Of a stretch of DNA of 64,000 bases, positions 2,085-58,532 are shown piece by piece; position 1 is the stretch's first letter, and each line of letters begins with the position of its first letter. The notes beneath the pieces are model-generated. The model searched no databases. It was not told where the DNA came from and worked only from the letters and a program-made list of their open reading frames with translations. Source of the DNA: Alistipes sp. (lineage in GTDB: Bacteria; Bacteroidota; Bacteroidia; Bacteroidales; Rikenellaceae); contig JAFTOU010000027.1 of the NCBI GenBank assembly GCA_017463615.1, positions 230,062 through 294,061 on the forward strand. Reading direction: 5' to 3'. The translations under genes and the position numbers were made by a program.

Positions 2085-2210
2085 TTTGACGTCAGAACGC
2101 GGTAGATACAACGCTCGGCACAAAAAACAGCGAAGGGCTGTACTAAGTCGTACTGCCCTTTGCTGTTTATTTGTGTTAGCGGAAGTAGGTATCCGCGTTA
2201 TCACGTCAAA
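2085..2210. repeat. Family A structured repeat, copy 1
   Basis: The outer arms TTTGACGT and ACGTCAAA form inverted termini. The inner hairpin at 2125-2168 pairs AAACAGCGAAGGGC with GCCCTTTGCTGTTT around the loop GTAC-TAAGTC-GTAC. One left-arm G faces a right-arm T, a G·U wobble in plus-strand RNA. The element ends five bases from the secDF stop codon. An extra degenerate left arm lies near 2048-2062. Five more copies in the window share the loop and architecture but have different stem sequences. Confidence 0.85.
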
Positions 2211-2215
2211 TTGAC

Positions 2216-5158
2216 TTATTGCTTAGACTTTGCGGGGAGCAAATCATACGCCAACGGCGTCGCAATAAAGAGGGTTGAATATGTACCAACGATAACACCG
2301 ATGAGCAGTGCGAATACGAAACCACGGATAGTTGTACCACCGAAGATAAAGATTGCAAGCAGGGTTACCAGGGTAGTACCTGAGGTATTGAGGGTACGAG
2401 ACAATGTAGAGCAAAGTGCATTGTTCAAGTTCTCACGAGCGTTACGCTTAGGGAAGAGAACATTGTACTCACGAATACGGTCAAAGACAACCACTGTATC
2501 GTTGATAGAGTAACCGATGATAGTCAGAATTGCTGCGATGAATGCCTGGTCAATCTCAAGACTGAATGGCATAAAGGTGTAGCAGAGTGAGTAGAGACCG
2601 ATAACGAAGAACACATCGTGTGCAAGACCCACGGTAGCACCTGTAGCCCACTGCCACTTCTTGAATCGGAATGCGATATAGAGACCGATAGCAATCAGTG
2701 AGAAGAATACAGCGAAGAATGCGCCAGTAGTCATATCCTTAGCCACTGCAGGACCAATCTTATCTGCAGAGATAATACCGTTCATATCCTCCTGAGTATT
2801 CTTGAACGCATCCATAGAGATGTCGTAGCTATAGAGTGGCTTGAGAGCCTTGTAAATCAGCTTCTCAACCTCCTCAGTAGTAGCCTCAGAGGTATCGTCG
2901 TGCTTGTACTGAGTAACGATACGCATGTGGTTCTTGTCACCATACTGCTTAACCTCAAATGAAGCGTTTGCAGCATCCTCAGCGTCAGCGAAGACCTCAG
3001 AGAGCTGTGCACGAACCTGCTCAGCAGTAACCTCCTGGTCAAAGCGAACTACGAAGGTACGACCACCGGTAAACTCTACGCCGAGGTTAAGACCCTGAAC
3101 GAACAGAGAGATAACAGATGCGAGGATTACAGCGCCAGAAGCCAGGTAAGCAATCTTACGCTTGCCGATGATGTCAAACTTGAAGTCTGCAAGCCAGTTC
3201 TCAGACCAGCTACGAGAGAATGATACGGTGCCACGCTTCTCCAGTACCCACTCAATAAGCATACGAGTAACGAATACTGCGCAGAAGAATGAGGTGATGA
3301 TACCGATAATCAGAGTAGTTGCGAAGCCCTGTACTGGACCATTACCGAAGATGTAGAGAACAACACCGGTGATGATGGTAGTAAGGTTACCGTCGATAAT
3401 TGCTGAGTATGCGTTAGAGAAACCATCCTTGATAGCGGCAGCAAGACCCTTGCCTGCACGAAGCTCCTCCTTGATACGCTCAAAGATAATAACGTTAGCA
3501 TCCACCGCCATACCCATGGTAAGCACGATACCCGCGATACCTGGCAGGGTAAGAACTGCACCGAATGAAACGAGCACACCCATAAGCAGGAATACATTGA
3601 CAATCAGCGCTGCAGCTGACAACCAACCACCTGTCTTATAGAACAGACCCATATAGAGCAGTACCAGAACGAATGCGATAACGAATGAGAGCAGACCAGA
3701 GTTGATAGACTCCTGACCCAGTGATGGACCTACTACGGTATCCTGGATGATGCGTGCTGGAGCTGGAACCTTACCAGACTTAAGAACATTTGCAAGGTCC
3801 TGAGCCTCCTGGATAGTGAAGTTACCAGTAATAGATGAGTTACCACCCTCAATCTTGTTGCGAACAACAGGAGCAGAGTATACATAACCATCCAGAACGA
3901 TAGCGATGCACTTGTTGATATTATCAGCGGTAAGCTGTGCCCACTCGGTAATACCGTTAGAGTTCATTGACATAGATACCTCAGCATCTGCACCAGTCTG
4001 TGCGTATGTAGCACGAGCGTCAGAGATTACGCCACCATCCAGTGGAGCCTTACCATCGGCACGCTCAACCTTGATAGCATAGAGGCAGAGGCGGTTGTCA
4101 AACATAGGCTCGCCCTTGATACCCCACTTGAATGCAACATCTGCAGGGAAGCAGTCGCGAACCTCTGGCAGAGCCAGATACTTGTTGATAGTAGCAACAT
4201 CGGCTGCAACAGCTGCACCGATAACTGCGCCACCAGCATAGTCTGGGCTGAGAAGTGCCAGGAGTGGATTCTGCTCGCGAGAGAAGCGGCTCTCAGCACC
4301 CTCCTCTGCAGTAGCAGCAACCTCAGCAGCGAGCTCTGACTGAGCAGTCTCAGCTACAGCCTCGTCTGTTGCCAATGACTTTACAACAGCATCAGCACGA
4401 AGCAGCGATGGAAGCAGCTCAGCGCCATTGTATGTTGTCCAGAACTCAAGCGATGCAGTACCCTGGAGGAGCTTACGAACACGCTCAGGCTCCTTGATAC
4501 CTGGAAGCTCTACCAGAATACGGTTAGAGTTTGGCAGGCGCTGGATATTTGGCTGCATAACGCCGAAGTGGTCAATACGGCTACGGATGATGTTGAATGA
4601 AGCAGAGATAGCAGCCTCAGTCTCCTCGCGAAGGACCTTAACTACCTCAGCATCAGACATTCCAGGCTGGATATCCTTGCGGTCTGGGCTAAGGAAAATA
4701 TCTACCAGCTTACCACCGTTGCCACCCTCAGCATAAGCCTCTGCGAAGGTGCCGATGTAGTCGCCAGTACCCTCCTTAAGAGCCTGTGCAGCCTTCTCCA
4801 TAGCGGCGATGAATGCAGGATCGTTCTTGCTATCGCCAGCCAGTGACTTAACCACATCCTCAACCTGAATCTCGAGCATTACGTTCATACCGCCCTTCAG
4901 GTCAAGACCCAAGTTAATCTCCTTCTCCTTGCACTGCTTGTATGTAAACTGTGCAAGACCAATGTTGTAAACCACCTTGTTCTGAATAGAATCGAGGTAG
5001 TACTGCTCCATTGCAACCTGCTCCTCTGCAGGGAAAGCTGCAGCGTACTCTACAGCATCCTTCTCTACGCTACGAGTCTTGAGCGAGAATGTCAGCTGAT
5101 AGAGACACGCCAGCGAAAGCAGGATTGCAATCAATTTGATAAAACCTTTACTTTGCAT
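2216..5158 (-). CDS. secDF: Protein translocase subunit SecDF (fused SecD-SecF)
   Basis: This 980-residue membrane protein uses the proton-motive force to assist Sec-dependent export at the periplasmic face. The fused form is usual in Bacteroidetes. An N-terminal membrane segment is followed by the SecD signature LGLDLKGG at residues 83-90, the P1 head, and a six-helix RND block containing GMAVDANVIIFERIKEE. The SecF half begins with LGVEFTGG near residue 690 and carries the equivalent NDTVVVFDRIREYN motif. It has its own promoter (5230-5259). Family A copy 1 lies directly behind the stop codon. Length matches the family. Confidence 0.97.
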   Translation of the reverse strand: MQSKGFIKLIAILLSLACLYQLTFSLKTRSVEKDAVEYAAAFPAEEQVAMEQYYLDSIQNKVVYNIGLAQFTYKQCKEKEINLGLDLKGGMNVMLEIQVEDVVKSLAGDSKNDPAFIAAMEKAAQALKEGTGDYIGTFAEAYAEGGNGGKLVDIFLSPDRKDIQPGMSDAEVVKVLREETEAAISASFNIIRSRIDHFGVMQPNIQRLPNSNRILVELPGIKEPERVRKLLQGTASLEFWTTYNGAELLPSLLRADAVVKSLATDEAVAETAQSELAAEVAATAEEGAESRFSREQNPLLALLSPDYAGGAVIGAAVAADVATINKYLALPEVRDCFPADVAFKWGIKGEPMFDNRLCLYAIKVERADGKAPLDGGVISDARATYAQTGADAEVSMSMNSNGITEWAQLTADNINKCIAIVLDGYVYSAPVVRNKIEGGNSSITGNFTIQEAQDLANVLKSGKVPAPARIIQDTVVGPSLGQESINSGLLSFVIAFVLVLLYMGLFYKTGGWLSAAALIVNVFLLMGVLVSFGAVLTLPGIAGIVLTMGMAVDANVIIFERIKEELRAGKGLAAAIKDGFSNAYSAIIDGNLTTIITGVVLYIFGNGPVQGFATTLIIGIITSFFCAVFVTRMLIEWVLEKRGTVSFSRSWSENWLADFKFDIIGKRKIAYLASGAVILASVISLFVQGLNLGVEFTGGRTFVVRFDQEVTAEQVRAQLSEVFADAEDAANASFEVKQYGDKNHMRIVTQYKHDDTSEATTEEVEKLIYKALKPLYSYDISMDAFKNTQEDMNGIISADKIGPAVAKDMTTGAFFAVFFSLIAIGLYIAFRFKKWQWATGATVGLAHDVFFVIGLYSLCYTFMPFSLEIDQAFIAAILTIIGYSINDTVVVFDRIREYNVLFPKRNARENLNNALCSTLSRTLNTSGTTLVTLLAIFIFGGTTIRGFVFALLIGVIVGTYSTLFIATPLAYDLLPAKSKQ

Positions 5159-5229
5159 TTGAGTTAAAAATTAAAATTATTTGTTTTTGTTCTCTTTCGT
5201 TTTGTTTCGTTACTATACACAAAAGCACG

Positions 5230-5259
5230 CAAAGATAATAAAAATTTTTCAATTCACAA
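5230..5259 (-). promoter_or_regulatory. Promoter of secDF
   Basis: The minus strand reads TATCTTTG at 5230-5237 (-7) and TTG at 5257-5259 (-33), with 19 bases between. The leader to the ATG at 5158 is about 65 bases. Confidence 0.75.
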
Positions 5260-5310
5260 TCTTCCGCGCGCTAATTTCAACAATATAGCATAAAAAGCCC
5301 CTATTTATTG

Positions 5311-5553
5311 GGCTATTGGCCATTTGCCATTGGCTCGTCTACGACGACCCTTCCTCCTCGCGGCTCGGCATAGTGAGCAGGCTCCCTCTGCTCTCGCTCC
5401 GCAGCGTCGGTTAGCTATTGGCTATATCAAGGTATCGCTACGCGATAGTGTTTAGGGGTGCAGTTTGTACTGCTGGTTTTTGTAGCGCCCTATAAACACT
5501 GTCGACTTGCCGACACCGCTAAAAAGCCAATGGCTAATAGCTAACGGCTAATG
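5311..5553. repeat. Family B nested inverted repeat, copy 1 (complete)
   Basis: The outer arms consist of iterated GGCTATTGGC-type units on the left and GCCAATGGCTAATAGC-type units on the right. Inside are a left sub-hairpin, GGTATCGCTACGCGATA followed by GTGTTTAGGGGTGC, and a right counterpart, TAAACACTGTCGACTTGCCGACACC. An 84-bp module (5332-5415) that also occurs in copies 2 and 3 sits in the left half. Family A copy 2 follows. The gap 5159-5683 is otherwise only the secDF leader and promoter. Confidence 0.8.
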
Positions 5554-5584
5554 TCCATTTTGGCGCGCTATCACGCTAAAATAA

Positions 5585-5707
5585 TTTGTCGTCAAAATGC
5601 GGTAGTAGGCGCGCATCGTGAAATATCCCCGGATGGGTTGTACTTGAGCGTACTACCCATTCGGGGATATGAGGGATGTGCGGCTAATGCCGTATTTTCA
5701 CGGCAAA
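5585..5707. repeat. Family A structured repeat, copy 2, overlapping the P-ATPase 3' end
   Basis: The outer arms are TTTGTCGTCAAAAT and ATTTTCACGGCAAA. The inner hairpin at 5623-5670 pairs ATATCCCCGGATGGGT with ACCCATTCGGGGATAT around GTAC-TTGAGC-GTAC, with one G·U. The right arm runs through the ATPase stop codon (5684-5686) and encodes its last residues, so this repeat supplies the natural C-terminus. Confidence 0.85.
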
Positions 5708-8700
5708 TAACCTGAATAGGTCGGGGATAATAAGTACTGGTGAGGTCAGTAGCAACAACCATCCCCAATCCTCGGCGGAGAGAGGTGTGACATTGAAGAA
5801 CTCGCCAGCGAAGGATACGATAGCCACCTGGCCGAGCAGGATGATGAGCAGAATCCAGATGAAGCCTGAGCTATAAGAGGCGGTTACCGCCTTACGGTTG
5901 CGGAACAGGTCTACAATGTCAAGTATCAGGCTACGGTTTGTGCGGAAGTACTTGGCATTAAACAAGTTCCAGAACTGCAGCAGCACGAATGTAGAGAAGA
6001 ATACGCCCAGGTCGTGGCCGCTCATACTCTTAGTATTTGCGACATCAAATAGACCCGTAAACATCATCTTGATACTCTCCACACTCAGCAGTTGGGCTAC
6101 GCTATCCACGCTAACATGGCGCAGCAGCTGCCACAGAGCCGAGAGGAAGACAAAGAAGAAGAGCCCTGTGCCCACAATGCGCTTCATCATCGCGATATTG
6201 ATAATATGACTCTTAGGACTACGCGGAGCCTCGTTTAGCACACCCTTATCTGGTGGCAGCGACGAGAGCGCCATAGCGGCGAAGGTATCCATAATAAGGT
6301 TTACCCAGAGCATCTGAGTAACAGTAAGTGGCGACTCAAGTCCCAAAAATGCACCCAGCAACACTACAAGGCAGGCGCAGAGGTTGATAGTCATCTGGAA
6401 GATGATAAATCGGCGGATATTGAGGTATAGCGAGCGACCCCACATAATCGCCTTATTGATGCTTGAGAATGAGTTGTCAATAATGGTTATATCGCTCGCC
6501 TCCTTAGCCCTTGATGTGCCGTCGCCCATACTCAGACCCACCTGCGCCTTGCTGAGCGCTGGGGCATCATTCGTACCGTCGCCCGTAACGGCCACCACCT
6601 CGCCCACCTGCTGGAGCAGGGTCACAAGGCGCGCCTTATCATCGGGGCGTGCACGGGAGATAATCTTGAAGTTAGGGTCGGCAACAAGCGCCAGAGCCTC
6701 AGCGTCCGACATAGCTGCAAACTGCGGTCCCGTAACGCTCTGCGGAGCCTCGTCAGCAGTCAGCAGACCTATCTGGCGACCAATCTCGTTTGCTGTTCCA
6801 GGGGTGTCGCCCGTAACGATAATAACGCGCACCTTTGCCCTATTTCGGCAGGTATCTATAGCCTCCAGCACATCCTCGCGAACAGGGTCGGCAATACCCA
6901 CCACGCCAACAAATATCAGCGGGCTATCCTCGTCCCCCACAACCTGATAGGCAAAGCCGAGGGTACGCATAGCCTTGTTCTGATATGCCGTAAGGGTCTG
7001 AAGCACAGAGCCTTTATCTACACCCGCAGCAATAGTGTCGCACATCTCAAGCAGTATCTCCGGAGCACCCTTTATCAGTCGCAGCGTGCGCTTATCCTCT
7101 GCTACGACGACCGTCTCCATAGACTTTGTCTCGGTAGAGAATGGACGCTGGCTTACAAGGGTCACCTTGCGGCGCAGTACGGCGTAGTCCTCGCCCTGCC
7201 CCTTGAGCCACTTGAGCAGCGCACCCTCCGTAGGGTTACCAATCACGCGAGTGACGCCATCGCTCTCTACGGCCAACTCGGCAGTAGAGTTTACGGCGAC
7301 ATTGAGCTTGATAATATCCTCCGCATCCTCGCCATAGAGGTCGGATGCCATCACTACCATCTGATTCTTTGTCAGCGTACCGGTCTTGTCGGTGCAGATA
7401 ACCGTCGTAGCGCCCATGGTCTCGCAAGCGTGGAGCTTACGCACTAAGTTGTTAGCCTTGAGCATCTTACGCATACTAAGCGCAAGGCTCACGGTAACAC
7501 TCATAGGCAGACCCTCAGGCACAGCTACGACAATGAGCGTCACGGCAATCATCACCGACGAGAGCATAAACTCCGCAAAGCCGAGCCAGTCAAACTGACC
7601 CTCTACGGCATGACCCTCGCCAACGAAGTAGACTATCGTTCTACCCACAAGGATAAGGGCGGCGATGATAAAGCTCGCCTTGGATATAAGACCTCCCAGC
7701 TGGTCAAGCTGCTGGTTGAGTGGGGTCTCCACATCACTACCCTCGCGAGTCAGAGCCACACCGCGACCCTCCTCCGTATCGTCACCCACAGCGGTTACGC
7801 AGTAGTAGCAGTTACCCTCAATAATCATCGCGCCACGCAGCAGGAAGTCCGAGTCGTAGGTTGCATCGGGGTCGCTATCCTCGGGGTTGGCACTCTTGTT
7901 GGCATACACCTCGCCCGTAAACTTGGACTCATCCACCTTGAGTGAGTTGGAGAATAGCAGACGGCCATCGGCAGGCACCTCGTCGCCACTCTCAAGGTAG
8001 ACAATATCGCCCACGACGACATTCTGCTTCTTAACCTTGAATGGGCGAACTACCATAACCACTGGCGACTTGCTCGTATCCGACTGCGGCACAGCGCCCT
8101 TACTTGCAGCTATAGATACCCGCTCCGCCTTGTCACCCTTGGCAATATCTCCAAAAAAGCCCTTCTCACAGAACACATTGTCGTGAGTAAGGGTGTCCGG
8201 CTGACAATCTATATCAGCCTTGTCGGCAGCAAAGGCTGCTGGCGAGACTACGCTGGCAGTAACGGCGACATTCAAACCCTCGTGCAGCTCAAGGTCTATC
8301 TCCTTGTCTACGCTCTCGTCTACCTTCTCGGAGGATAGCACAGAGGCGATGTTGGAGGCGGTCAAATCCTCGCTCTGCTTGTAGAGCACCAGCTCCACAG
8401 TGCGGTAGACAATTACCGGACGGTCGTCCTTGACCTTATTTAGAATCTCAAACTCCTTGTTTGCCTTAACCTCAAAAATAAAGGCGATGCCCGTTGCCAA
8501 AAGTAGAGCCACAAGTACACCACACGGCTCTAAAAGCATAGACATCCCCTTGCCCATCCATATAATCTCGTAGAGAGATATACCCACCGATAGCACAAAT
8601 ACAACCAGTAGGACGATGATAATCGGGTCCTTAAACTTCTCTATATACTGCCACCAGAGCGACCTCTTCTTCGGCGGCGTTATGATATTCTTACCCTCGC

Positions 8701-8764
8701 CACGCTGCACCTGCTCCGAGTTGAAAGCCAGCGCCTTGGCGAAAATCTGCTGCTTGTTCATCAT
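5684..8764 (-). CDS. Calcium-type P-type ATPase with a ~115-residue insertion
   Basis: This 1026-residue P-IIB-like cation ATPase probably exports Ca2+ from the cytoplasm. Visible motifs are the phosphorylation site DKTGTLT, the actuator loop FTGE, PEGLPM in membrane helix 4, TGD and GDGTNDAPAL. The actuator domain is interrupted between about residues 121 and 236 by an acidic, Ala/Ser-rich segment lacking in typical homologues, where PVIVYR would normally run into the VVVGDIV strand. I chose the start at 8764 because the -7 box at 8782-8789 lies downstream of the longer possible start at 8815. The C-terminus is encoded within family A copy 2. Confidence 0.92.
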   Translation of the reverse strand: MMNKQQIFAKALAFNSEQVQRGEGKNIITPPKKRSLWWQYIEKFKDPIIIVLLVVFVLSVGISLYEIIWMGKGMSMLLEPCGVLVALLLATGIAFIFEVKANKEFEILNKVKDDRPVIVYRTVELVLYKQSEDLTASNIASVLSSEKVDESVDKEIDLELHEGLNVAVTASVVSPAAFAADKADIDCQPDTLTHDNVFCEKGFFGDIAKGDKAERVSIAASKGAVPQSDTSKSPVVMVVRPFKVKKQNVVVGDIVYLESGDEVPADGRLLFSNSLKVDESKFTGEVYANKSANPEDSDPDATYDSDFLLRGAMIIEGNCYYCVTAVGDDTEEGRGVALTREGSDVETPLNQQLDQLGGLISKASFIIAALILVGRTIVYFVGEGHAVEGQFDWLGFAEFMLSSVMIAVTLIVVAVPEGLPMSVTVSLALSMRKMLKANNLVRKLHACETMGATTVICTDKTGTLTKNQMVVMASDLYGEDAEDIIKLNVAVNSTAELAVESDGVTRVIGNPTEGALLKWLKGQGEDYAVLRRKVTLVSQRPFSTETKSMETVVVAEDKRTLRLIKGAPEILLEMCDTIAAGVDKGSVLQTLTAYQNKAMRTLGFAYQVVGDEDSPLIFVGVVGIADPVREDVLEAIDTCRNRAKVRVIIVTGDTPGTANEIGRQIGLLTADEAPQSVTGPQFAAMSDAEALALVADPNFKIISRARPDDKARLVTLLQQVGEVVAVTGDGTNDAPALSKAQVGLSMGDGTSRAKEASDITIIDNSFSSINKAIMWGRSLYLNIRRFIIFQMTINLCACLVVLLGAFLGLESPLTVTQMLWVNLIMDTFAAMALSSLPPDKGVLNEAPRSPKSHIINIAMMKRIVGTGLFFFVFLSALWQLLRHVSVDSVAQLLSVESIKMMFTGLFDVANTKSMSGHDLGVFFSTFVLLQFWNLFNAKYFRTNRSLILDIVDLFRNRKAVTASYSSGFIWILLIILLGQVAIVSFAGEFFNVTPLSAEDWGWLLLLTSPVLIIPDLFRLFAVKIRH

Positions 8765-8781
8765 AGCAATTAAATTTTCCG

Positions 8782-8789
8782 CAAAGATA
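8782..8789 (-). promoter_or_regulatory. -7 box of the P-ATPase gene
   Basis: The minus strand reads TATCTTTG, 17 bases from the ATG at 8764. A TTTG-like -33 lies about 22 bases upstream. The box rules out the longer start codon at 8815. Confidence 0.65.
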
Positions 8790-8835
8790 ACACCAGCCAC
8801 AAACAAAACGGCCAAAAATCCAAACGTTTGGATTT

Positions 8836-9000
8836 TTAGCCGTTAGCCGTTAGCTATTGGCTGTTGGCTCGTCTACGACGACCCTTCCTCCTCGCGGCTC
8901 GGCAAAATGAGCAAGCTCCTTCTGCTCTCGCTCCGCAGCGTCGGTTAGCTTTTCAGCGGTATCGCCATAGGCGATGGTGTTTAGGGGTGCGGATTGCACC
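8836..9000. repeat. Family B repeat, copy 2 (left half only)
   Basis: This copy has the left arm (GCCGTTAGCCGTTAGC...), the 84-bp module at 8866-8949 and the left sub-hairpin GGTATCGCCATAGGCGATG followed by GTGTTTAGGGGTGC. The right half is absent and the sequence then enters the 3' end of the next gene. Confidence 0.7.
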
Positions 9001-30276: not shown

Positions 30277-30367
30277 GTACTTTTTTGGATAATTCCCTAA
30301 TATCCAGAATATTTTACCGATTTTTTAGCTATTAGCCATTAGCTATTGGCTTTTTAGAGGATTTTTT

Positions 30368-30484
30368 TATTAAGGGTTATTAAAGAGTATTAAGGGTTAC
30401 TAATGGTCGCTGGCGCGACGCTACGCAGTACAAAAGTTGCGCAACCCTTAATAATCTTTAATCTCCCTTAATAATCTTTAATAT
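30368..30484. repeat. Module C intergenic inverted repeat, copy 2
   Basis: Arms of ATTAAGGGTTATTAAAGA and its approximate complement flank the core GGTTACTAATGGTCGC and GCGACGCTACG. A family-B-like fragment (agccattagctattggc) lies just left at 30335-30355 and family A copy 3 lies to the right, the same order as around copy 1. The gap 30232-30649 holds these and the weak promoter. Confidence 0.75.
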
Positions 30485-30533
30485 ATCGCCACGGCTCGCA
30501 CTGTCGGTTATTATGCACACCCATTTGTCGTCA

Positions 30534-30646
30534 AAATGCGGTAGTAGGTGTGCATCGTGAAATATCCCCGGATGGGTTGTACTAAGGCGTACTACCCATT
30601 CGGGGATATGAGGGATGTGCAGCTAATGCCGTATTTTCACGGCAAA
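30534..30646. repeat. Family A structured repeat, copy 3
   Basis: The outer arms are TTTGTCGTCAAAAT and ATTTTCACGGCAAA. The inner hairpin at 30562-30609 has the same stem as copy 2 (ATATCCCCGGATGGGT with its partner) but the loop reads GTAC-TAAGGC-GTAC. It ends three bases before the stop codon of the dehydrogenase gene. Confidence 0.85.
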
Positions 30647-30649
30647 TAG

Positions 30650-31702
30650 CTACTTTGTGTTGTCAAAGGTATAATCCTCCCAAGGATGCTGTGCATCTGC
30701 ACCACGCTCGAGGATGTTCTCTACATGGACGAGCATTGGGAAGTCTTTGAGGTCTACCTGGCCGAGCTCTGCCTTGCGGTAGATAGCCTTAGCTACGCGG
30801 CGAGCGACAACGAGGGACTCAAGGGTTACGCCAGCGAGGATATCCAGTGCCTCCTCGTAGGTCTTACCCTCGCCGAGCAGGATACCGATCTTACGGGTAC
30901 GGCCGCCATAAACGGTTACATAGAGGTCGCCGATACCGATATTCTCGCAGTCAAAGTCTGCGCCCTGGATAGCGAGCAGGCGGCGCATCTCCTTAACAGC
31001 CTGATAGAAGGCAGCTGCCTGAGAGTTGTAGTGCAGACCTGCATCCTCGCCAAGGTAGCGGTTTACAAGGCCGATGGTCAGAGCCACGCCGAGGGCGTAA
31101 GCGTTCTTGAGTGCTACGGCGCTCTCAAGGCCGATAACATCGTTTGTCAGGGAGATATGGTAGTAGTCTGTAGTGAGTGTCTCGCGCATCATACGGAGCA
31201 CTGCAGAGTCCTTACCGCAGAATGCAACCTCGGTCTGGTCGTGGAACACCAGCTCGTAAGAGGTACAAGGGCCACCGATAGCGCATACCTCGCGCTCAAT
31301 GCCCTTCTTTGCAAGCTCTGCCTGCCAGTAGTCTGGGTAGCTGATAAGGGTACCATCCTCAAGGTTGATAAGGCCCTTAGTTACAGAGAGAACAGGGGTC
31401 TTAGGGTCAAGGTTTGTGAGAATCTCCTCCAGGAACCAATCAACACCGAATGAAGATACACCGCCGATAACGAAGTCGCAACCCTCAACAGCTGTTTTCC
31501 AATCCTCAATCTGATAGTACTTGATACCCTGTGGGAAGTCGCGGTCAAACTTAGGGTGGCGATTTGTCGCCTTGCAGGCATCAATAATGTCGCGGTCCAG
31601 TGGTGAACCTACCAGACGCACCTCGTGGCCATTCTCTGCAGCTGGAAATGCGAGTGCAGAACCCATCATTCCCGAGCCAATAATCGTTACTACTTTTTTC
31701 AT
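30650..31702 (-). CDS. Glycerol-3-phosphate-dehydrogenase-like protein (GpsA family, divergent)
   Basis: The 350-residue protein opens with a Rossmann motif (IIGSGMMGSALA) and shows GpsA-type landmarks: GGPCTSYEL, DVIGLESAVALKNAYALG containing the catalytic-Lys region, and GIGDLYVTVYGGR. GpsA reduces dihydroxyacetone phosphate to sn-glycerol-3-phosphate for phospholipid synthesis. Several positions differ from canonical GpsA (GSG instead of GAG; the CTSPQSRN block is replaced), so I give no symbol. It has its own promoter. A related opine- or ketopantoate-type dehydrogenase is less likely. Confidence 0.75.
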   Translation of the reverse strand: MKKVVTIIGSGMMGSALAFPAAENGHEVRLVGSPLDRDIIDACKATNRHPKFDRDFPQGIKYYQIEDWKTAVEGCDFVIGGVSSFGVDWFLEEILTNLDPKTPVLSVTKGLINLEDGTLISYPDYWQAELAKKGIEREVCAIGGPCTSYELVFHDQTEVAFCGKDSAVLRMMRETLTTDYYHISLTNDVIGLESAVALKNAYALGVALTIGLVNRYLGEDAGLHYNSQAAAFYQAVKEMRRLLAIQGADFDCENIGIGDLYVTVYGGRTRKIGILLGEGKTYEEALDILAGVTLESLVVARRVAKAIYRKAELGQVDLKDFPMLVHVENILERGADAQHPWEDYTFDNTK

Positions 31703-31806: not shown

Positions 31807-31910
31807 CTTTTACGCATAAAAAAGACAATAATAGCAAAATTTTCGCTGTCTTTTCGTTTACTTTTGGGTATTTTGTGCTATTTTGCGCTACCTTTCTCTT
31901 TGCACGACCA

Positions 31911-32048
31911 TTTTGGCGTCAGAGTGGTGTAGTTGCGGGGCATCGTGCAAAAAAATCAGTCGCGGATAGTACTAAAGCGTACAGCCGCGACTGATTTTTA
32001 AGGGATGTGCCGCAACTGCGCCACTATCACGCCAAAATCACGATAAAA
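31911..32048. repeat. Family A structured repeat, copy 4
   Basis: The outer arms are TTTTGGCGTCA and TCACGCCAAAA (31911-32037), followed by an extra right arm TCACGATAAAA that touches the dnaK stop codon at 32049. The inner hairpin at 31951-31999 pairs AAAAATCAGTCGCGG with CCGCGACTGATTTTT around GTAC-TAAAGC-GTAC. With flanking A and T tracts it could serve as a terminator in both directions. Confidence 0.85.
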
Positions 32049-33953
32049 CTATTTAACCTCCTCAAACTCTACATCCTCAGGCTGCGCCTGCTGCTGAGCA
32101 CCCTGCTGCTGCGCTGCTGAAGGGTCTGCCTGAGCGCCCTGAGCTGCCTGCTGAGCGGCGTAGATATCCTGAGAAGCTGCCTGCCAAGCGTTGTTAAGCT
32201 CTGCCATAGCGGTGTCAATAGCTGCGATATCGGCGTTCTTGTGAGCCTCCTTGAGCTTACCGAGGGCGGTCTCAATAGCTGCCTTCTTATCTGCAGGAAT
32301 CTTATCACCATACTCCTTGAGGTTCTTCTCGGTAGTGAAGATATTTGCATCGGCGGTGTTAATCTTCTCAACACGCTCCTTCTCTACGCGGTCCTTCTCC
32401 TCGTTAGCCTTAGCCTCGTCGCGCATACGCTGAATCTCGGCGTCGGTAAGACCGCTTGAAGCCTCAATGCGGATAGTCTGCTCCTTGCCAGTACCCTTAT
32501 CCTTAGCGGATACATTGAGGATACCGTTTGCGTCAATATCAAAAGTTACCTCAATCTGTGGCACGCCGCGTGGAGCTGCAGGGATGCCATCAAGGTGGAA
32601 GCTACCGATGCTCTTATTGTCGCGTGCAAACTGGCGCTCGCCCTGGCATACATTGATAACTACAGATGGCTGGTTGTCCTCAGCGGTAGAGAACACCTGG
32701 CTCTTGCGAGTAGGGATGGTGGTGTTAGCCTCAATGAGCTTAGTGAACACGCCACCCAGGGTCTCAATACCGAGTGAGAGCGGAGTAACATCAAGCAGTA
32801 CCAAATCGTCCTTAACATCGCCAGAGAGGATACCGCCCTGGATAGATGCACCTACAGCAACAACCTCGTCTGGGTTTACGCTCTTATTTGGAGCCTTGCC
32901 GAAGAACTGCTCAACAATCTTCTGGATTGCAGGGATACGGGTAGAACCACCTACGAGGATAACCTCGTCAATCTGCGAAGCGCTCAGGCCTGCATCGCGC
33001 AGAGCTGCACGGCAAGGCTCAATAGTACGCTGTACGAGGTGGTCGCAGAGCTGCTCAAACTTAGCACGAGTGAGAGTCATCACAAGGTGCTGAGGGATGC
33101 CGTTGATAGGCATGATGTATGGCAGGTTAATCTCGGTAGACTGTGACGAAGAGAGCTCAATCTTAGCCTTCTCAGCAGCCTCCTTAAGACGCTGGAGAGC
33201 CATAGCATCCTGACGAAGGTCTACGCCGTGCTCGCTCTTGAAAGACTCTGCCATAAAGTCAATGAGGACATGGTCAAAGTCGTCGCCACCAAGGTGGGTA
33301 TCACCATTTGTAGACTTAACCTCAAATACGCCATCGCCAAGCTCAAGGATAGAGATATCAAAAGTACCACCACCAAGGTCGTAAACGGCAATCTTCATAT
33401 CGCGGTTCATCTTGTCCATACCGTAAGCCAGAGCCGCAGCGGTAGGCTCGTTTACGATACGACGAACCTTCAGACCAGCAATCTCGCCAGCCTCCTTAGT
33501 AGCCTGACGCTGAGAGTCTGAGAAGTATGCAGGCACGGTGATAACAGCCTCGGTAACCTCCTGACCCAGATAGTCCTCGGCAGTCTTCTTCATCTTCTGA
33601 AGGATGATAGCCGAAATCTCCTGTGGAGTGTACTGACGACCGTCAATATCTACGCGAGCAGTATCGTTAGCACCACGCACAACAGCGTATGGAGAGCGAG
33701 CGATGTCAGAAGCGACATTCTCAAACTTCTCGCCCATGTAGCGCTTGATAGAGAATACTGTACGCTTAGGGTTTGTGATAGCCTGACGCTTTGCAGGATC
33801 GCCTACCTTGCGCTCGCCACCATCAGTAAATGCAACAATAGAAGGGGTTGTACGATGACCCTCAGAGTTTGGAATAACAACAGGCTCTGCACCCTCCATT
33901 ACAGCGACACACGAGTTAGTTGTACCCAAGTCAATACCAATAATCTTTCCCAT
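32049..33953 (-). CDS. dnaK: Molecular chaperone DnaK (Hsp70)
   Basis: This 634-residue chaperone has the ATPase signatures [25 protein letters not shown] and [11 protein letters not shown], a substrate-binding domain ([14 protein letters not shown]), and a Gln/Ala-rich tail ending [10 protein letters not shown], the usual C-terminal EEVD-like motif. It folds and protects client proteins with DnaJ and GrpE, neither of which is in this window. It is apparently monocistronic: family A copy 4 abuts the stop, and a 130-base leader region plus family A and B repeats lie upstream. Confidence 0.98.
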
Positions 33954-34134: not shown

Positions 34135-34295
34135 TGGCTGTTGGCTCGTCTACGACGACCCTTCCTCCTCGCGGCTCGGCATAGTCTGCAAGCAGCCTCT
34201 GCTCTCGCTCCGCAGCGTCGGTTAGCCATTAGCTATTGGCTTTTCAGAGGTGTCGCTGCGCGACAGATGTTTAGGGGTGCGCCGCGGACAGCACC
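34135..34295. repeat. Family B repeat, copy 3 (left half)
   Basis: It contains the 84-bp module at 34143-34226, the arm TTAGCCATTAGCTATTGGC, and the left sub-hairpin GGTGTCGCTGCGCGACAG followed by TGTTTAGGGGTGCG. The right half is missing and family A copy 5 follows. The gap 33954-34483 consists of the dnaK leader, the hairpin, this copy and family A copy 5. Confidence 0.7.
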
Positions 34296-34355
34296 GCTGT
34301 CAAGTTTCTGCACCGCCCGTTTTGGCGTCAGAGTGCGTCTGGTATATACCGCCCG

Positions 34356-34483
34356 TTTTATCGTCAGAACGCGGTAGATACAACGCTCGGCAAAAAATCC
34401 CAGCGATGGATAGTACTAAAAGCGTACAGCCATTGCTGGGATTTTTTTTTAGCGGCAGTAGGTGCCGCGTTATCACGATAAAA
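34356..34483. repeat. Family A structured repeat, copy 5
   Basis: The outer arms are TTTTATCGT and ACGATAAAA. The inner hairpin at 34392-34447 pairs AAAAAATCCCAGCGATGG with CCATTGCTGGGATTTTTT around GTAC-TAAAAGC-GTAC, including one G·U. The right arm touches the stop codon of the SGNH hydrolase gene. A second left arm (TTTTGGCGTCAGAG) lies just outside at 34320-34333. Confidence 0.85.
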
Positions 34484-35590
34484 CTATTTGATATTGTAGG
34501 TGGAAAGAATCTCCACCACCTTCGGCTGAATAGTATCCGCCCAACGCTTATAACCCCAAGAGCATGGGTGAACGCCATCGGCAGAGGTGAGGCCGTCGGT
34601 ACCGGTCTGGTTTGGAGTGTCGATGAAGTAGACATCAGAGTACTCGGCGCAGATCTCCTTCATAAGGTTATCTACATACTCCATACGATCCTGCTCCTTC
34701 TTCTCGGCAGCGGTATCAAAGAGGCGACCATCGCGGTAGATGGTGCGCAGGAAGATGATAGGAGCCTTAGGGTTGCGCTTACGAATCTCGTTGAGGAATG
34801 GGCGGATGCGCTCACCAATCTGCTGGATAGATGGATTTGAGAATGCGTCGCAGATGTAGGCATCAGCCTTAGTGCCACCCAGAATCTCGCCCATAACGCG
34901 CTGCAGCTTACTATTGCCGCTCATACCGAAGCTATTGAGGTTCAGACCTGTCTGACGCATAAGGAATGCAGGGTATGTCATACCTGCGCAAGTAGCGCCT
35001 GAGCCGTGGGTGAACGACGAGCCGAAGATGGCGATATTGTGGCGATAAGGGTTCTTCATAGCCTTAATCTTTGCGCCCTCAGGCACGCCAATCTCAAGGT
35101 GTGTAAGCTCCGCAAACAGAGGCAGATAGAGTATACACTTGTGGTTAGAGCCGTCCATATTACGGATAACGCGCAAAGGCTTCTCAATCTTAGAGTTGCC
35201 ATCCTTGTCGTGGCCATCGCCATTGACTACAGAGGCAGCCCACTTATACTCGTTCTGGTGCTCAATGAAGAGGTTGAAGCCGCAGCCAGCAGTTGCAGGC
35301 ATAGCGCGGTTATGGCCACGATAGCCATACTTTGCACGCACCCAAATCTCCTTAGCGTCGGTCTCAAAGAGAATAGCCTGGCCTGCGCAGGTCTTGAGCA
35401 GGTTAGCCTCGGTCTTATTGAGCTCCGGATAGTCATTAACCTCAACGCGGTTGTAAGGGTTCTTGGTCTTGCACATCTTACCGATGTGGTTGAGCTTCTG
35501 AGCATCTGTCCACTTAAGCTCTACCTTCTGAGCGAATGCGAAGCCGAGCGAAAGGCTCAAAGCAACGACAAATAAAACGATTCTTTTCAT
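34484..35590 (-). CDS. Secreted SGNH/GDSL-family hydrolase, 368 aa
   Basis: A signal peptide (ends GFAFA/Q) is followed by an N-terminal β-domain of the type found ahead of Bacteroidetes SGNH esterases. The SGNH core has the nucleophile Ser in GSSFTHGSG, the Gly/Asn block FGMSGNSKLQ and the Asp/His pair in DGVHP. The protein should cleave ester groups, for example acetyl groups on glycans, in the periplasm or outside. It stands alone between the HTH gene and dnaK. The exact substrate cannot be read from sequence. Confidence 0.88.
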   Translation of the reverse strand: MKRIVLFVVALSLSLGFAFAQKVELKWTDAQKLNHIGKMCKTKNPYNRVEVNDYPELNKTEANLLKTCAGQAILFETDAKEIWVRAKYGYRGHNRAMPATAGCGFNLFIEHQNEYKWAASVVNGDGHDKDGNSKIEKPLRVIRNMDGSNHKCILYLPLFAELTHLEIGVPEGAKIKAMKNPYRHNIAIFGSSFTHGSGATCAGMTYPAFLMRQTGLNLNSFGMSGNSKLQRVMGEILGGTKADAYICDAFSNPSIQQIGERIRPFLNEIRKRNPKAPIIFLRTIYRDGRLFDTAAEKKEQDRMEYVDNLMKEICAEYSDVYFIDTPNQTGTDGLTSADGVHPCSWGYKRWADTIQPKVVEILSTYNIK

Positions 35591-39851: not shown

Positions 39852-40018
39852 TTGGCTGTTGGCTATTGGCCATTAGCTCTTAGCTTTTCTAAGGTATCCG
39901 CTGCGCGGATAGTGTTTAGGGGTGCTAATAAAATTGGTCTTGCACCTTAATAAACTACTATCGCCGAGGCGATACCGCTAAAAAGCCAATGGCTAACGGC
40001 TAATGGCTAACGGCTAAT
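39852..40018. repeat. Family B nested inverted repeat, copy 4
   Basis: The outer arms are iterated GGCTATTGGCCATTAGC and GCCAATGGCTAACGGC units. The left sub-hairpin is TATCCGCTGCGCGGATA followed by GTGTTTAGGGGTGC. The right one is TATCGCCGAGGCGATA preceded by TAATAAACTAC. The two stems have different sequence but each is self-complementary. The right arm contains the stop codon (40014-40016) of the phosphoesterase gene. Confidence 0.8.
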
Positions 40019-42172: not shown

Positions 42173-42175
42173 ATT

Positions 42176-42347
42176 TTGGCTGTTGGCTTTTGGCTTTTGG
42201 CTATTAGCTATTAGCTGTTGGCTTTTTAGCGGTATCGCCGTTGGCGATAGTGTTTATTATGGTGCAAGGCTAACTGCTAGCACCCCTAAATACTATCCGC
42301 GCAGCGGATACCTTAGAAAAGCCAATGGCTAATGGCTAATGGCTAAC
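42176..42347. repeat. Family B nested inverted repeat, copy 5
   Basis: The arrangement is the mirror of copy 4. The left sub-hairpin is GGTATCGCCGTTGGCGATA with GTGTTTA, and the right is TACTATCCGCGCAGCGGATACC preceded by GCACCCCTAAA. The outer arms are iterated TTGGC/GCCAATGGC units. It fills the whole space between the parC stop and the aroK start. Confidence 0.8.
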
Positions 42348-51629: not shown

Positions 51630-51640
51630 ACAACGACAAA

Positions 51641-51682
51641 AAAAACAACACAGCCGCTTTTACGAGCGGCTGTGTTGTTTTT
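51641..51682. terminator. Bidirectional terminator between the HMA and amide hydrolase genes
   Basis: An 18-bp arm (AAAAACAACACAGCCGCT) pairs perfectly with its complement around a six-base loop, with A and T tracts outside. It lies between convergent genes and its right end touches the amide hydrolase stop codon. Confidence 0.92.
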
Positions 51683-52748: not shown

Positions 52749-52749
52749 A

Positions 52750-53982: not shown

Positions 53983-53983
53983 T

Positions 53984-55024: not shown

Positions 55025-55028
55025 ACCA

Positions 55029-55036
55029 CAAAGATA
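55029..55036 (-). promoter_or_regulatory. -7 box of pyrD, implying a leaderless transcript
   Basis: The minus strand reads TATCTTTG and only four bases (TGGT) separate it from the ATG at 55024. A TTTG lies 23 bases upstream as a possible -33. Confidence 0.6.
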
Positions 55037-55085
55037 TAAAATTTGTTTTGAATTTTATTCAAACATAGATAAATGGACTCGCCTA

Positions 55086-57704
55086 CTACTTATTTCTTGC
55101 CTCCTCGACGATTTGGGCGGCTTTGCGCTCCGCCTCGGCGATTAGCTTATCGGCAGCGGCTTTAGCGGCAACTTTGGCGATAGGATTACTTGCCTTAGCG
55201 ACCAGTTTATCCGCCTCGGTGCGTGCTGTGGCGATGATTTGCGCAGCGCGAGCCTCCGCCTCGGCGATAAGCTCCTGCTTGGCGGTATCTACCTTCTGCT
55301 CCACCTGCTCTACCACCTGCTGCTTATCTATGCCCGCCTTCTCAAGCACAGCCTCGGCACTCTTGGCAGTATCAAGGCCAATCTTTGGCGAGGTGAATGT
55401 ACCTCCAATCTTAGCGTGCAGGGTAACCTGCGGCAGGGCTACAGCCACCTTATAGTCTATACTCTGGTCAAGACCCGTAAGACCCGAGAGGGTGAGCTTG
55501 GTCTTGCCCAACTTGATATCAAACGGCTGGGTTACGATATTACCATCCTCAATAGTAAAGCTGATAACCGTAGCCTCGGAGGTCTGTATCGTATTCAAAT
55601 CAATGCCGTTGCCAACCACCTTGGCCAGCGCCGTAAAGGCAGGGATATTGGAGAGCTTGAAGTTGCCCGAGGTAATCTTACCATTTCCGTTTACGCTCTT
55701 GAGCACCGGCGACATAGTGCTGTCTAACAGCATATTACAGTTCAGCGCCATGGTGTATGTACCCTCAATCTTCTCAAAGAGTGGCACCATCTTGGTTATC
55801 ATTTCAACTTGCGCTGCTGTCGTCTTAAACGACGCTTCGCTGAAGTTTGCATTGAGTCTGAGCCTGGGATTAGAGACATCTGCGGTAGAGTAGAGTGCCG
55901 AAGCCTTTGCTGCACCGTCAAACATATTCATAATCAGGTTGTTAAGCGACAGCTCGCCACCGCGAACAGTAGCCGCACCGGCAAGGTTGTCTATAACCAT
56001 CTTGTCGTAGAGCACCTTGTCAAACTTGCAGCTCAGGGCAAGGTCAAGATTCTTCGGAACCTCTATAACGGTCATCGGCTCGTCCGCGCCCTCCTCTGTC
56101 TGCTCAGTGTTTTCCGTCTGCTCAGTCTGCTCCTCATCCTCCGCCATAGAAGCCATAATCTCGTTGAGGTCAAGCAGTGTAGAGTTTACCGAAAGGTTGC
56201 CCGAGAGGGTCTTGTCGTGCAGCAGATAGCCCCAGTAGTTTGTAAGGCTGCCCTTTGCCGAGATATCGCTCTTGCCGATAGTAATATCCAAATTCTCCAA
56301 CGCCATCTTTGACGGTGAGAGTGTTGCCAGAGCGCTCTTCACGCCGATAGTTGGCAGTGAGCCATACTCAACCTCTATGCTCTCCACGCCCAGCTGACCC
56401 GACACGGCAAGGCGGTCGTAAGCGCCCTTGTCAATATCCGAGAGGCGACCCGCAGCGCTCGCATCGGCGGTGATAATACCCGCAAGTGCCATATCCTCAA
56501 GCGGATAGATATCCTTAATAGCACCCAAATCTACCTTGCCCTTTGCCGTAGCGGCGAAATTGAGGTCCGAGAGCGGAGTAGAGGCCTTGAGTGTAGCCGA
56601 GAAGCTCTGACCGCCGAAGCTGGCACCAAAGCGCGACACATCTACCGTAGTTGCATCCAACGAGCCACCGCGATTTGCCACCGCAGCGACAATATTTATA
56701 TCGGTAACCGACTTTGGCAGGTCTGCATACTTGAAGCTACCGCCCGCAACCTTCATATTGAGGTTGAAGGCAGGATAGTTCTCGCCACTCATACGACCCT
56801 TGATATCGCCCGTAAGCGATACATCGCCCGCAGCGGTAAGATTCTTGAAATCAGTAGTATAGAATGCCGGAACAAGCGAGAGGATATTCTTGAAGTTGTT
56901 GCCCGAGCAGTCAAGGTTGATGTCGGTAACGATATCGTCGCCCTCAAGCTGCACCCAGCCATCAAGCGCCGCCTTGACGCTATTTACCGACAGCTGCAGA
57001 CCATTGAGGGTATACTTGTCATTCTCAAGGTCAGCCACCACGCTACCATCCAATGTAGCTGTAAGACCTGAGGCGTAGGACTCCTTGCCACTCACGAAGG
57101 TTATATCGCCAGCCGCAGCCTGCAGGGCAAGCGTAGTGGTTGCTGCCGAGAGGTCACCCGAGAGGTGCAACGAGGCTGGAGCGGTGTGGAAGTGCATAGC
57201 CGACTGGTTGTCGGTGTAGTATATCTTAGCATCCTCAATAGCGAGCGAGCGGAGCGAAAGGCTGAATGAGGATGAGGACTCCTCCTCAACCTCCTCTTCC
57301 TCCTCGCCATCACTCTTCATGATGTCCCAGTTTACAGCGCCATCCTTAGCCACCACGCCGTAAATCTCTGGCGAGAGCAGCCACACCTTGCTAATCTCAA
57401 AGCTATCGCCAAAGAGCGAGAAGAGGTCTACGGCAACCTCTATCTTATCTGCTGCCACAAGCGTCTGACCCTCAAAGGCTTCCACGCCCACAACGCTAAG
57501 ACCAGAGAGCCCCACAGAGGCCTTTGGAAAGTGGCGCAGCAGCGAAATATCCAACTTACTGAACTCAACCTTGGCGTTGAGCATATTGTTCGCCTCACGC
57601 TTTACAATCTCCTCAATTTTACCACTCAGAGCCACTGGCACAATCAGCATAATAGCCACAATCAGACCGAGTATAACTGAGATAATCTTCAAAAATTTTT
57701 TCAT
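55086..57704 (-). CDS. AsmA-family protein with a coiled-coil tail, 872 aa
   Basis: An N-terminal membrane anchor (residues ~5-28) is followed by AsmA-type repeating β-groove sequence (NMLNAKVEFSKLDISLLRHFP, SLSGLSVVGVEAF-like strands) through to an AsmA_2-like C-terminal region. AsmA proteins are thought to move phospholipid to the outer membrane. The last ~85 residues are an Ala/Glu/Lys-rich coiled coil (AEARAAQIIATARTEADK, AEAERKAAQIVEEARNK) not typical of the family. A Glu/Thr-rich insert (QTENTEQTEEG) lies mid-protein. It is divergent from the DUF4923 gene. Confidence 0.85.
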   Translation of the reverse strand: MKKFLKIISVILGLIVAIMLIVPVALSGKIEEIVKREANNMLNAKVEFSKLDISLLRHFPKASVGLSGLSVVGVEAFEGQTLVAADKIEVAVDLFSLFGDSFEISKVWLLSPEIYGVVAKDGAVNWDIMKSDGEEEEEVEEESSSSFSLSLRSLAIEDAKIYYTDNQSAMHFHTAPASLHLSGDLSAATTTLALQAAAGDITFVSGKESYASGLTATLDGSVVADLENDKYTLNGLQLSVNSVKAALDGWVQLEGDDIVTDINLDCSGNNFKNILSLVPAFYTTDFKNLTAAGDVSLTGDIKGRMSGENYPAFNLNMKVAGGSFKYADLPKSVTDINIVAAVANRGGSLDATTVDVSRFGASFGGQSFSATLKASTPLSDLNFAATAKGKVDLGAIKDIYPLEDMALAGIITADASAAGRLSDIDKGAYDRLAVSGQLGVESIEVEYGSLPTIGVKSALATLSPSKMALENLDITIGKSDISAKGSLTNYWGYLLHDKTLSGNLSVNSTLLDLNEIMASMAEDEEQTEQTENTEQTEEGADEPMTVIEVPKNLDLALSCKFDKVLYDKMVIDNLAGAATVRGGELSLNNLIMNMFDGAAKASALYSTADVSNPRLRLNANFSEASFKTTAAQVEMITKMVPLFEKIEGTYTMALNCNMLLDSTMSPVLKSVNGNGKITSGNFKLSNIPAFTALAKVVGNGIDLNTIQTSEATVISFTIEDGNIVTQPFDIKLGKTKLTLSGLTGLDQSIDYKVAVALPQVTLHAKIGGTFTSPKIGLDTAKSAEAVLEKAGIDKQQVVEQVEQKVDTAKQELIAEAEARAAQIIATARTEADKLVAKASNPIAKVAAKAAADKLIAEAERKAAQIVEEARNK

Positions 57705-57724
57705 AATTTATCGTTTTTTATTTC

Positions 57725-57752
57725 CAAAGTTAGTGAGAATTTCTTAATTTTG
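57725..57752. promoter_or_regulatory. Divergent promoter region of the AsmA-like and DUF4923 genes
   Basis: The minus strand carries TAACTTTG at 57725-57732 for the AsmA-like gene. The plus strand carries TAATTTTG at 57745-57752 for DUF4923. The two boxes are only 12 bases apart, so the two promoters probably interfere with each other. Confidence 0.6.
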
Positions 57753-57776
57753 TAGCAAATATAAATAAAAAGTATT

Positions 57777-58376
57777 ATGAAACGAATTTTTATCACATTT
57801 TTCGCCGCTCTATTTACCCTCACAACGGTAAATGCCCAGTGGCTTGACGCCCTGAAAAAGGTCGCAACAGAGGTGGTAGACCAGGCTACAGATGGTCAGC
57901 TTACACAGCTGGCAGTTATCGGCAATTGGACATATTCAGCCCCTACCGTAAAGCTCCAGGGCGATGATACCCTCTCCAACCTCGGCAGCACAGCCCTTAC
58001 CTCAACCCTTGAGAGTAAGCTGGTTAGCGCCTTTGCAAAGGTGGGCATCAGCGAGGGCTTCTGCTCCGTGACATTCAATGCCGATGGTACATTCTCCATG
58101 CCAGTAAAGAGCAAGAGCCTCACAGGTACATATACCTACAACAACACCGACCACTCGCTCACCATGCTTGTCGGCCAGAGTGGCAAGATAGACCTCAAGG
58201 GCTACGCCTACATCAGCGGCGAGAGCCTGCAGCTGGTCTTCCCTATCAACAAGTTCACCCAGCTGCTCACAACCCTCGGCTCAAGCGTCAGCGCCCTGAG
58301 CTCTGTAACCTCCCTGGTAAAGCAGTACGAGAACATCTACCTCGGCCTCTCATTCAACAGAGTGGTAGCGGAGTAG
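57777..58376 (+). CDS. DUF4923 lipocalin-like secreted protein, 199 aa
   Basis: A signal peptide (ends TVNAQ) precedes LDALKKVATEVVDQATDG and a β-barrel-like region (GNWTYSAPTVKLQGDD, VTFNADGTFSMPVKSKSLTGTY) characteristic of the DUF4923 family. A small periplasmic ligand-binding role is inferred. It is the only plus-strand gene here that is followed by a family A repeat (copy 6). Confidence 0.85.
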   Translation: MKRIFITFFAALFTLTTVNAQWLDALKKVATEVVDQATDGQLTQLAVIGNWTYSAPTVKLQGDDTLSNLGSTALTSTLESKLVSAFAKVGISEGFCSVTFNADGTFSMPVKSKSLTGTYTYNNTDHSLTMLVGQSGKIDLKGYAYISGESLQLVFPINKFTQLLTTLGSSVSALSSVTSLVKQYENIYLGLSFNRVVAE

Positions 58377-58404
58377 TTCTAAAACTCCGAGTGCAACCTG
58401 CACC

Positions 58405-58532
58405 TTTTATCGTCAGAGTGGTGCAGTTACCACGCTCGGCAAAAAGTGGCAACGATGGATAGTACTAAAGCGTACAGCCATTGTTGCCACCTTTTTGTTA
58501 GCGGAAGTAAATGCGCCACTATCACGATAAAA
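58405..58532. repeat. Family A structured repeat, copy 6
   Basis: The outer arms are TTTTATCGTCAGAGTGG and CCACTATCACGATAAAA. The inner hairpin (58441-58506) pairs GTGGCAACGATGG with CCATTGTTGCCAC around GTAC-TAAAGC-GTAC, with one G·U. It lies 28 bases after the DUF4923 stop. The loop has the same orientation as in copies 1-5, although the upstream gene is on the opposite strand. Confidence 0.85.

Follow-up and report, generated by a model that had tools for sequence, protein, structure and literature searches.

Hairpin repeats anchored at stop codons in Alistipes: a possible family of non-autonomous mobile DNA elements

Background

ERIC sequences are enterobacterial repeats of about 127 bp, each of them a single imperfect palindrome, which lie between genes and have no known transposase. 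REPs are extragenic palindromes of 20–40 bp that occur in high copy number (PMC3733652), and in E. coli 446/4,072 REPs lie within 15 nucleotides (nt) of a stop codon (PMC12306157). The hairpin family described here came to light through six copies in a stretch of 64,000 nt from the genome of Alistipes sp. (assembly GCA_017463615.1, contig JAFTOU010000027.1), which is called the window throughout. Its unit is about 127–130 nt long (125–130 nt measured). An earlier note on this DNA had described the six copies as structured repeats; what goes beyond that first reading is the anchoring at stop codons, the shared direction of the copies and their relation to codon usage, all reported below.

Results

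All six copies in the window are real, and each of them folds into a single long, imperfect hairpin whose apex is GTAC-N6/7-GTAC (Table 1). The six were also located correctly apart from small corrections to the ends, copy 3 beginning at 30523 and not at 30534. The genome-wide search with a covariance model that the note had proposed was carried out with a model built from 37 copies, and the 2.4-Mb genome of Alistipes sp. gave at least 148 matches, the six window copies among them; 145 are to the whole model and three are cut by contig ends. With stricter filters, matches were found in 37 of 150 genomes of the taxonomic family (36/149 besides this genome); 29 of these carrier genomes belong to the same genus, this one included, and eight to two other genera. 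A second species of the genus gave 116 matches and two more species gave 141 and 135, counts which include some places listed on both strands. Among named genome records, an exact 27-mer of the apex occurs in 25 stretches, every one of them from Alistipes or from Rikenellaceae metagenome-assembled genomes. No match to the family was found in plasmids or phages at the search sensitivity used, and a single pattern match in viral contigs was rejected as a chance match, its sequence not continuing as an element.

The genomic context covers 118 of the 148 matches, and the strand given by the model agrees with the sequence marks in 116 of these 118 copies, the other two, C64:65210 and C3:103291, being judged by eye to agree. 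An open reading frame (ORF) on the right-hand side reads into the copy in 101 of the 118. The stop codon of the facing gene lies between −25 and +24 nt of the copy's right end in 90/118, between −11 and +7 nt in 81/118 and between −2 and +2 nt in 55/118; at −6 and −11 the stop codon is supplied by the copy itself. ORFs that approach from the left show no peak, 47 of 50 ending 14 to 701 nt away and three at −22, −90 and −137. The right end is precise and the left end loose, with a tail that contains left-end remnants. The same anchoring is seen outside this genome, with a stop codon within 15 nt at 41 of 58 places in other genomes and at 61 of 70 copies in the two relatives G122 and G146 (35/40 and 26/30). 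The C-termini of the right-hand genes differ from one another; in the window these genes encode SecD/SecF, a P-type ATPase, a GpsA-like protein, DnaK and a GDSL lipase.

In addition to their position, the copies share a direction. Where a contig holds three copies or more, its majority orientation is shared by nearly all of them, 124 of 129 in total (142/148 when the smaller contigs are included), among them 30/30 on C40 (402 kb), 24/24 on C64 (294 kb) and 16/17 on C51, and the same holds in relatives with 49/51 in G122 and 47/49 in G146 among the copies listed. In 26 of the 29 own-genome stretches longer than 9 kb the sign of the GC skew is as expected, and the agreement persists where most ORFs run the opposite way (15:2 in L115, where the skew is weak, and 9:2 in L101). 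Judged from this skew, the folded strand is probably the C-rich strand of lagging sense, and the orientation of the copies would be tied to replication. Copy 6 keeps the orientation of its contig despite having no gene that reads into its right end. Genes running against the majority orientation of the copies, here called leading, end in a copy in 74/288 cases vs 3/157 for the others (p = 2e-12), a contrast that partly restates the orientation result since the labels come from the copies; the three lagging cases are reversed copies behind lagging genes. Two rules, gene end and direction, seem to act.

The genes that carry a copy are also distinguished by their codon usage, which is nearer to that of dnaK than the codon usage of other leading genes (68 vs 187 genes, p = 4e-8, dnaK omitted). 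The difference remains among genes with a downstream gap of more than 60 nt (55 vs 60, p = 1e-4, dnaK included). High-scoring genes (score > −0.05, gap > 60 nt) carry a copy in 27 of 43 leading and in 0 of 15 lagging cases, and a looser score cut-off gives 35/57 and 2/21, respectively. The codon usage thus suggests that carrier genes are highly expressed.

From its base inwards, the + strand fold has the outer stem (N)TTTNNNGTC/GACNNNAAA(N), then an internal loop and the middle stem, and an inner stem whose sequence varies leads to the apex. In all six window copies the predicted fold is more stable on the + strand than on the − strand, and an apex of the form GTAC-N5..8-GTAC is present in 112 of the 118 covariance-model copies. 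For the covariation test 37 copies of the Alistipes sp. genome were aligned with MAFFT without structure, and 50 pairs (1806 cells) were scored. Three of 40 copies (L029, L036 and L037) were left out because their right end was not found by the pattern, and L008 and L035, which lie at contig ends and have ill-matched arms, were kept. Paired cells made up 95.5% vs 83.1% in shuffles and 34–52% in slid controls; the tested structure was the fold of one copy with an outer pair added, a choice that biases this measure towards the unslid version. Changes on both sides occurred at 31 of 50 pairs vs 16.4 in shuffles, 68 further pair types were present, and none of 500 shuffles was as good on any of the five covariation measures. 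As the collecting script required a GTAC apex, the invariance of the apex among the 37 copies is partly by choice, and its four pairs do not count as independent evidence. The covariation that the earlier note wanted tested is strong, and both its differing inner-stem sequences and its outer arms changing in pairs are borne out.

The pairing extends slightly beyond the unit. An additional variable pair outside the ends is paired in 85 of 115 copies vs 52.7 expected, three of the 118 copies having been excluded as too near the end of a stretch, and little or nothing is paired beyond it. Past this one outer pair the flanks do not match, and the ends vary in sequence and stay paired. For a MITE of a DDE transposase, which would have a fixed terminal inverted repeat and a target-site duplication, these observations and the single filled/empty comparison described below are the relevant ones.

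The imperfect pairs reveal which strand is folded. On the + strand of the 37 copies, G·T pairs outnumber A·C pairs by 160 to 17, with a scoring that treats both alike, and at 58 places in other genomes by 278 to 69. At the 47 pairs for which a Watson-Crick pair is the commonest type the numbers are 64 vs 19, so that the three conserved wobble positions alone are not the explanation. The excess of G·T over A·C indicates that selection acts on a folded, single-stranded molecule of the + sequence; no such asymmetry would be expected of a cruciform in double-stranded DNA. The covariation and the wobble asymmetry together support the selection for a single-stranded fold that had been suggested for the six copies. 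Arm-to-arm conversion, which had been offered as the other cause of the paired changes, does happen but is rare: it was seen in one of the 118 copies (C58:8147), in which the left-hand 18 nt, with the loop, are exactly complementary to the final 18, and conversion-like arms are also present in two copies of relatives. An unpaired left loop of the GTCARA type is retained in 104/118 copies. Because conversion is rare and the internal loops are kept, conversion alone fails to explain the paired change. An alternative pairing of the tail with the left arm, which would make the element a switch, was rejected, as tails matched their own arms (5.60) about as they matched other arms (5.52), with 506 of 2000 permutations giving a match as high; a complementarity of 9 nt exists in a few copies.

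The dnaK locus provides the one comparison between a filled and an empty site. In Alistipes sp. a copy stands between the stop codon of dnaK and its terminator, together with an 11-nt fragment of another copy directly against the stop, and the terminator-like hairpin with its T-run stands 56 nt beyond the element. Four genomes (G168, G167, G149 and G142) have the same gene after dnaK, a terminator directly after the stop and no full copy, and the terminator of G142 resembles by eye that of Alistipes sp. There is likewise no copy behind dnaK in G122 and G146, but their downstream gene is a different one. Copies of other subfamilies stand right after the dnaK stop in G106, G178, G231 and G236, the last with two in tandem. 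This insertion, absent from close relatives, supports the mobility that had been proposed.

Gene ends appear to be used repeatedly. Among the genes to the right of copies in G122 and G146, 18/63 match carriers of the Alistipes sp. genome at 60% identity or more, 16 distinct ones of the 98 own carriers being matched. These 98 carriers would make up about 5% of the genes, as extrapolated from 462 ORFs in 562 kb, yet 18/63 are shared, which argues that gene ends are reused. The copies at orthologous gene ends in G122 and G146 belong, by eye, mostly to other subfamilies. Other contig-internal loci hold copies that are 91–93% identical to copy 6, a further point in favour of mobility, and many copies are 75–85% identical to it with their stems still paired.

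Other structures were observed behind dnaK. Short hairpins with a GGGT-GTAC-type apex and without outer arms occur there in G205 (L172) and G153 (L069/L174) and are perhaps decayed or minimal versions of the element. In four other genomes of the genus, G200, G216, G199 and G169 (L175, L178, L181 and L075), a different structured repeat of the TTTTAAGCAGC.. type is located just behind the dnaK stop; its apex is TTTAC-N6-GTAAA or CATAC-N5-GTATG with an apical loop similar to that of the hairpin family, and the two possibly belong to one superfamily.

Rfam returned no match at the gathering threshold over the whole window, and at E values up to 5 it gave eight matches at five loci, all under the gathering scores; at Rfam thresholds the copies thus match no described RNA family, in line with the earlier note. 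The suggestion of a mobile terminator was not supported, since inspection of the flanks by eye showed no consistent T-run after the hairpin on either strand and the dnaK terminator lies beyond the element. No integron integrase scored over the cut-off in any of 19 carrier genomes, in a search in which no control genome passed either, so that its sensitivity is not shown; the weaker matches skip model positions of about 190–230 and look like ordinary tyrosine recombinases. The integron core RYYYAAC / GTTRRRY was not seen by eye at the element ends. Gene cassettes were rejected as an identity of the carriers, those in the window being housekeeping genes.

Table 1. Copies of the hairpin family, partial copies and other repeats in the window
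Feature	Position	Strand	Context
Copy 1	2084-2211	+	Right end 4 nt from stop of SecD/SecF gene 2216-5158 (-)
Copy 2	5584-5708	+	Stop of P-type cation ATPase gene 5684-8815 (-) inside right part, 25 nt from copy end
Copy 3	30523-30647	+	Right end 2 nt from stop of NAD-glycerol-3-phosphate dehydrogenase (gpsA-like) gene 30650-31702 (-)
Copy 4	31911-32037	+	Downstream of dnaK 32049-33953 (-)
Copy 5	34356-34483	+	Abuts stop of GDSL lipase gene 34484-35590 (-)
Copy 6	58405-58532	+	Between + genes DUF4923 57777-58376 and NifU-like 58640-59332
Right-end fragment (11 nt) of another copy	32038-32048	+	Between copy 4 and dnaK stop
Terminator-like hairpin and T-run of dnaK	31818-31854	-	By eye homologous to the hairpin directly after the stop in G142
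Left-end-only remnant	2048-2068	+	Upstream of copy 1
24-nt remnant with both outer ends	5558-5581	+	Upstream of copy 2
Left-end-only remnant	34320-34337	+	Upstream of copy 5
Second repeat family	5307-5344, 8834-8871, 30323-30360, 34213-34250, 39857-39894, 42174-42232		
Third repeat	1899-2008, 30365-30473		

Two further repeats were noticed in the window. The second dispersed family consists of TTAGCYATTGGC runs followed by an inverted repeat AGAGGTATCGC..GCGATAGTGTTTAGGGGTGC; it often lies to the left of the hairpin repeats, and the same order was found in the family flanks inspected. In the third, which lies in the same spacers, TTAAGGGTTATTAAAG-like units surround a GCGACGCTACGC core. Within the hairpin family itself, head-to-tail tandem arrays of two or three copies a few nt apart occur in G095 (C13:243399-243775 and C10:142134-142535), at L021:1546-1801 and in L180. 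The contigs C53, C28, C65, C35, C36 and C23 start or end in or next to a copy, suggesting that the family probably breaks short-read assemblies, and joins made during assembly may account for the ill-matched arms at L008 and L035.

Discussion

We read the hairpin repeats as a family of non-autonomous mobile DNA elements that spread as single strands of lagging sense and join at stop codons, a reading to which we give a probability of roughly 0.45. The precise right end, the loose left tail with its remnants, the fixed orientation and the preference for one folded strand all point to a single-stranded intermediate of lagging sense. In detail, copies would multiply via a folded single-stranded intermediate of the + strand, in the sense of the lagging strand, which could be single-stranded DNA or RNA. 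New copies would join the gene-sense strand just after the stop codon or a few codons before it, with the non-joining end carrying the looser tail, and the targets would be highly expressed genes that are transcribed in the direction of replication. The joining would require a host enzyme or an enzyme supplied in trans. As for the choice of stop codons, we tentatively suggest that the stretch past the last ribosome may most often leave the gene-sense strand single-stranded, this strand being open, presumably, both in R-loops and as the template of the lagging strand. A bolder version, more doubtful than the mobility itself, is a new mode of DNA mobility: host enzymes would take the place of a resident dedicated transposase, integron integrase or reverse transcriptase, and highly expressed genes co-directional with replication would be targeted at their stop codons, probably via the single-stranded gap left by translation termination and the lagging strand.

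Several points weigh against mobility or against parts of this scheme. The synteny to the left is kept at two and not kept at two of only four informative loci. No mobilising enzyme was found among Y1 transposases, integron integrases and reverse transcriptases, other transposase families not having been searched for. No right-hand gene reads into the copy at 17/118 copies, and 11 of the 101 facing genes have their stop codon more than 100 nt from the copy; in addition, the stretches were chosen to contain copies, and the genes are mechanical ORF calls. The codon score rests on a single reference gene, dnaK, which is itself a carrier, and the leading and lagging labels, both in the count of 74/288 and in the codon-usage comparisons, were taken from the majority orientation of the copies. 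With regard to replication, the pooled own contigs C57 and C7 lack the expected sign of the skew. In relatives, whose single stretches have weak skew, the skew of the 20-kb stretch around a copy fits its orientation for 39 of 55 copies, and when genes are called by the skew, 25/198 leading vs 11/127 lagging genes carry a copy (p = 0.28).

The main rival is selection in place, by which the copies would be functional elements of gene ends that tune translation termination or mRNA decay or block antisense transcription entering the gene against the fork; they would spread rarely and be swapped among sites by recombination. The occupation of the same gene ends in different species (18/63), the link to codon usage and the stems that stay paired in many copies with only 75–85% identity to copy 6 would all be accounted for in this way, and E. 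coli REPs at most 15 nt from a stop are said to stall ribosomes (PMC12306157). However, the wobble asymmetry favours the strand opposite the mRNA, so that a role in the 3′ untranslated region of the mRNA is not the one kept. The high-scoring genes of the other strand are moreover without copies (0/15), copies between + genes keep the orientation of their contig, and at dnaK a full copy is missing from the closest relatives. We regard selection in place as a serious but rather unlikely explanation.

Less probable still is a retroposon, similar to a bacterial SINE, for which a + RNA would be copied by a reverse transcriptase that uses the gene-sense strand at the stop codon as its primer. The precise right and loose left ends would be expected of such an element, and the tolerance of wobble pairs fits RNA. 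A match to the reverse transcriptase domain RVT_1 was however found in only eight of 19 carrier genomes and in none of the other 11, and the only one in the own genome (L165, G000:C49:2406-3044) is located on a piece of contig without a copy in its neighbourhood. Furthermore, the remnants upstream of the copies are left ends and not the 5′-truncated copies that would be expected.

It is very improbable that the copies are REP/REPIN-like or IS200/IS605-derived elements moved by a Y1 (HUH) transposase, as their high copy number and hairpin form might suggest. The unit of 127 nt contrasts with the 20–40 bp stated for REPs (PMC3733652). Y1_Tnp is absent from the own genome and present in one of the 37 carrier genomes, which speaks against the substrate of a REP-type transposase proposed in the earlier note; the lack of the gene already contradicts this identity, unless an unassembled replicon encodes it. 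An orientation tied to replication is known for IS200/IS605, but IS608 acts on the template of the lagging strand, whereas here the fold is kept in the strand of lagging sense. An integron-like attC recombination site, an imperfect palindrome behind the stop that folds on the strand opposite the gene and conserves structure over sequence, is hardly credible given the 19/19 genomes without an integrase over the cut-off (no control passed), the absence of a visible GTTRRRY core at the ends and window carriers such as dnaK, secD/F and gpsA.

On the reading as mobile elements, insertion would be linked to translation termination, and the family may serve as a natural report of which parts of the chromosome expose single-stranded DNA or naked RNA. 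If the copies act in place, common gut bacteria would possess a large class of elements that work at gene ends. Related Alistipes species, of which there are dozens, offer replicates.

Comparison with known systems

A search of the open literature found no such family, and we know of no dispersed bacterial repeat that combines anchoring at stop codons, one orientation over 400 kb and a single-stranded fold maintained by compensatory changes. ERIC sequences share the length, the single imperfect palindrome, the intergenic position and the lack of a known transposase. Compared by description, they differ in that they belong to a different phylum, while the hairpin family is anchored at stop codons and uniformly oriented; to our knowledge neither feature has been described for ERIC. 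IS200/IS605 elements and their MITEs also form single-stranded hairpins and are tied to the direction of replication. In contrast to IS200/IS605, the hairpin family has no Y1 transposase in its own genome, a single hairpin makes up the entire unit, the fold is that of the other strand, and the position is that of the stop codon. Integron attC sites resemble it as structure-conserved imperfect palindromes behind stops with the folded strand opposite the gene, but the hairpin family is dispersed behind housekeeping genes, and neither an integrase over the cut-off nor the core motif was seen with it.

REPs and REPINs with their RAYT proteins (GTAG- or CGTC-tagged) are likewise extragenic palindromes in high copy, some of them at most 15 nt from stops (PMC3733652, PMC12306157). 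The hairpin family differs from them in its greater length (about 127 nt), in the presence of Y1 in one of 37 carrier genomes and in having one orientation per contig. CGTC is common in the own subfamily, where it forms part of a paired arm; many copies of relatives lack it. The facing stop lies between −11 and +7 nt in 81/118 hairpin copies, compared with 446/4,072 within 15 nt for E. coli REPs (PMC12306157). The hairpin family resembles REP and ERIC in kind but lacks those defining features of REP/RAYT and attC for which it was tested.

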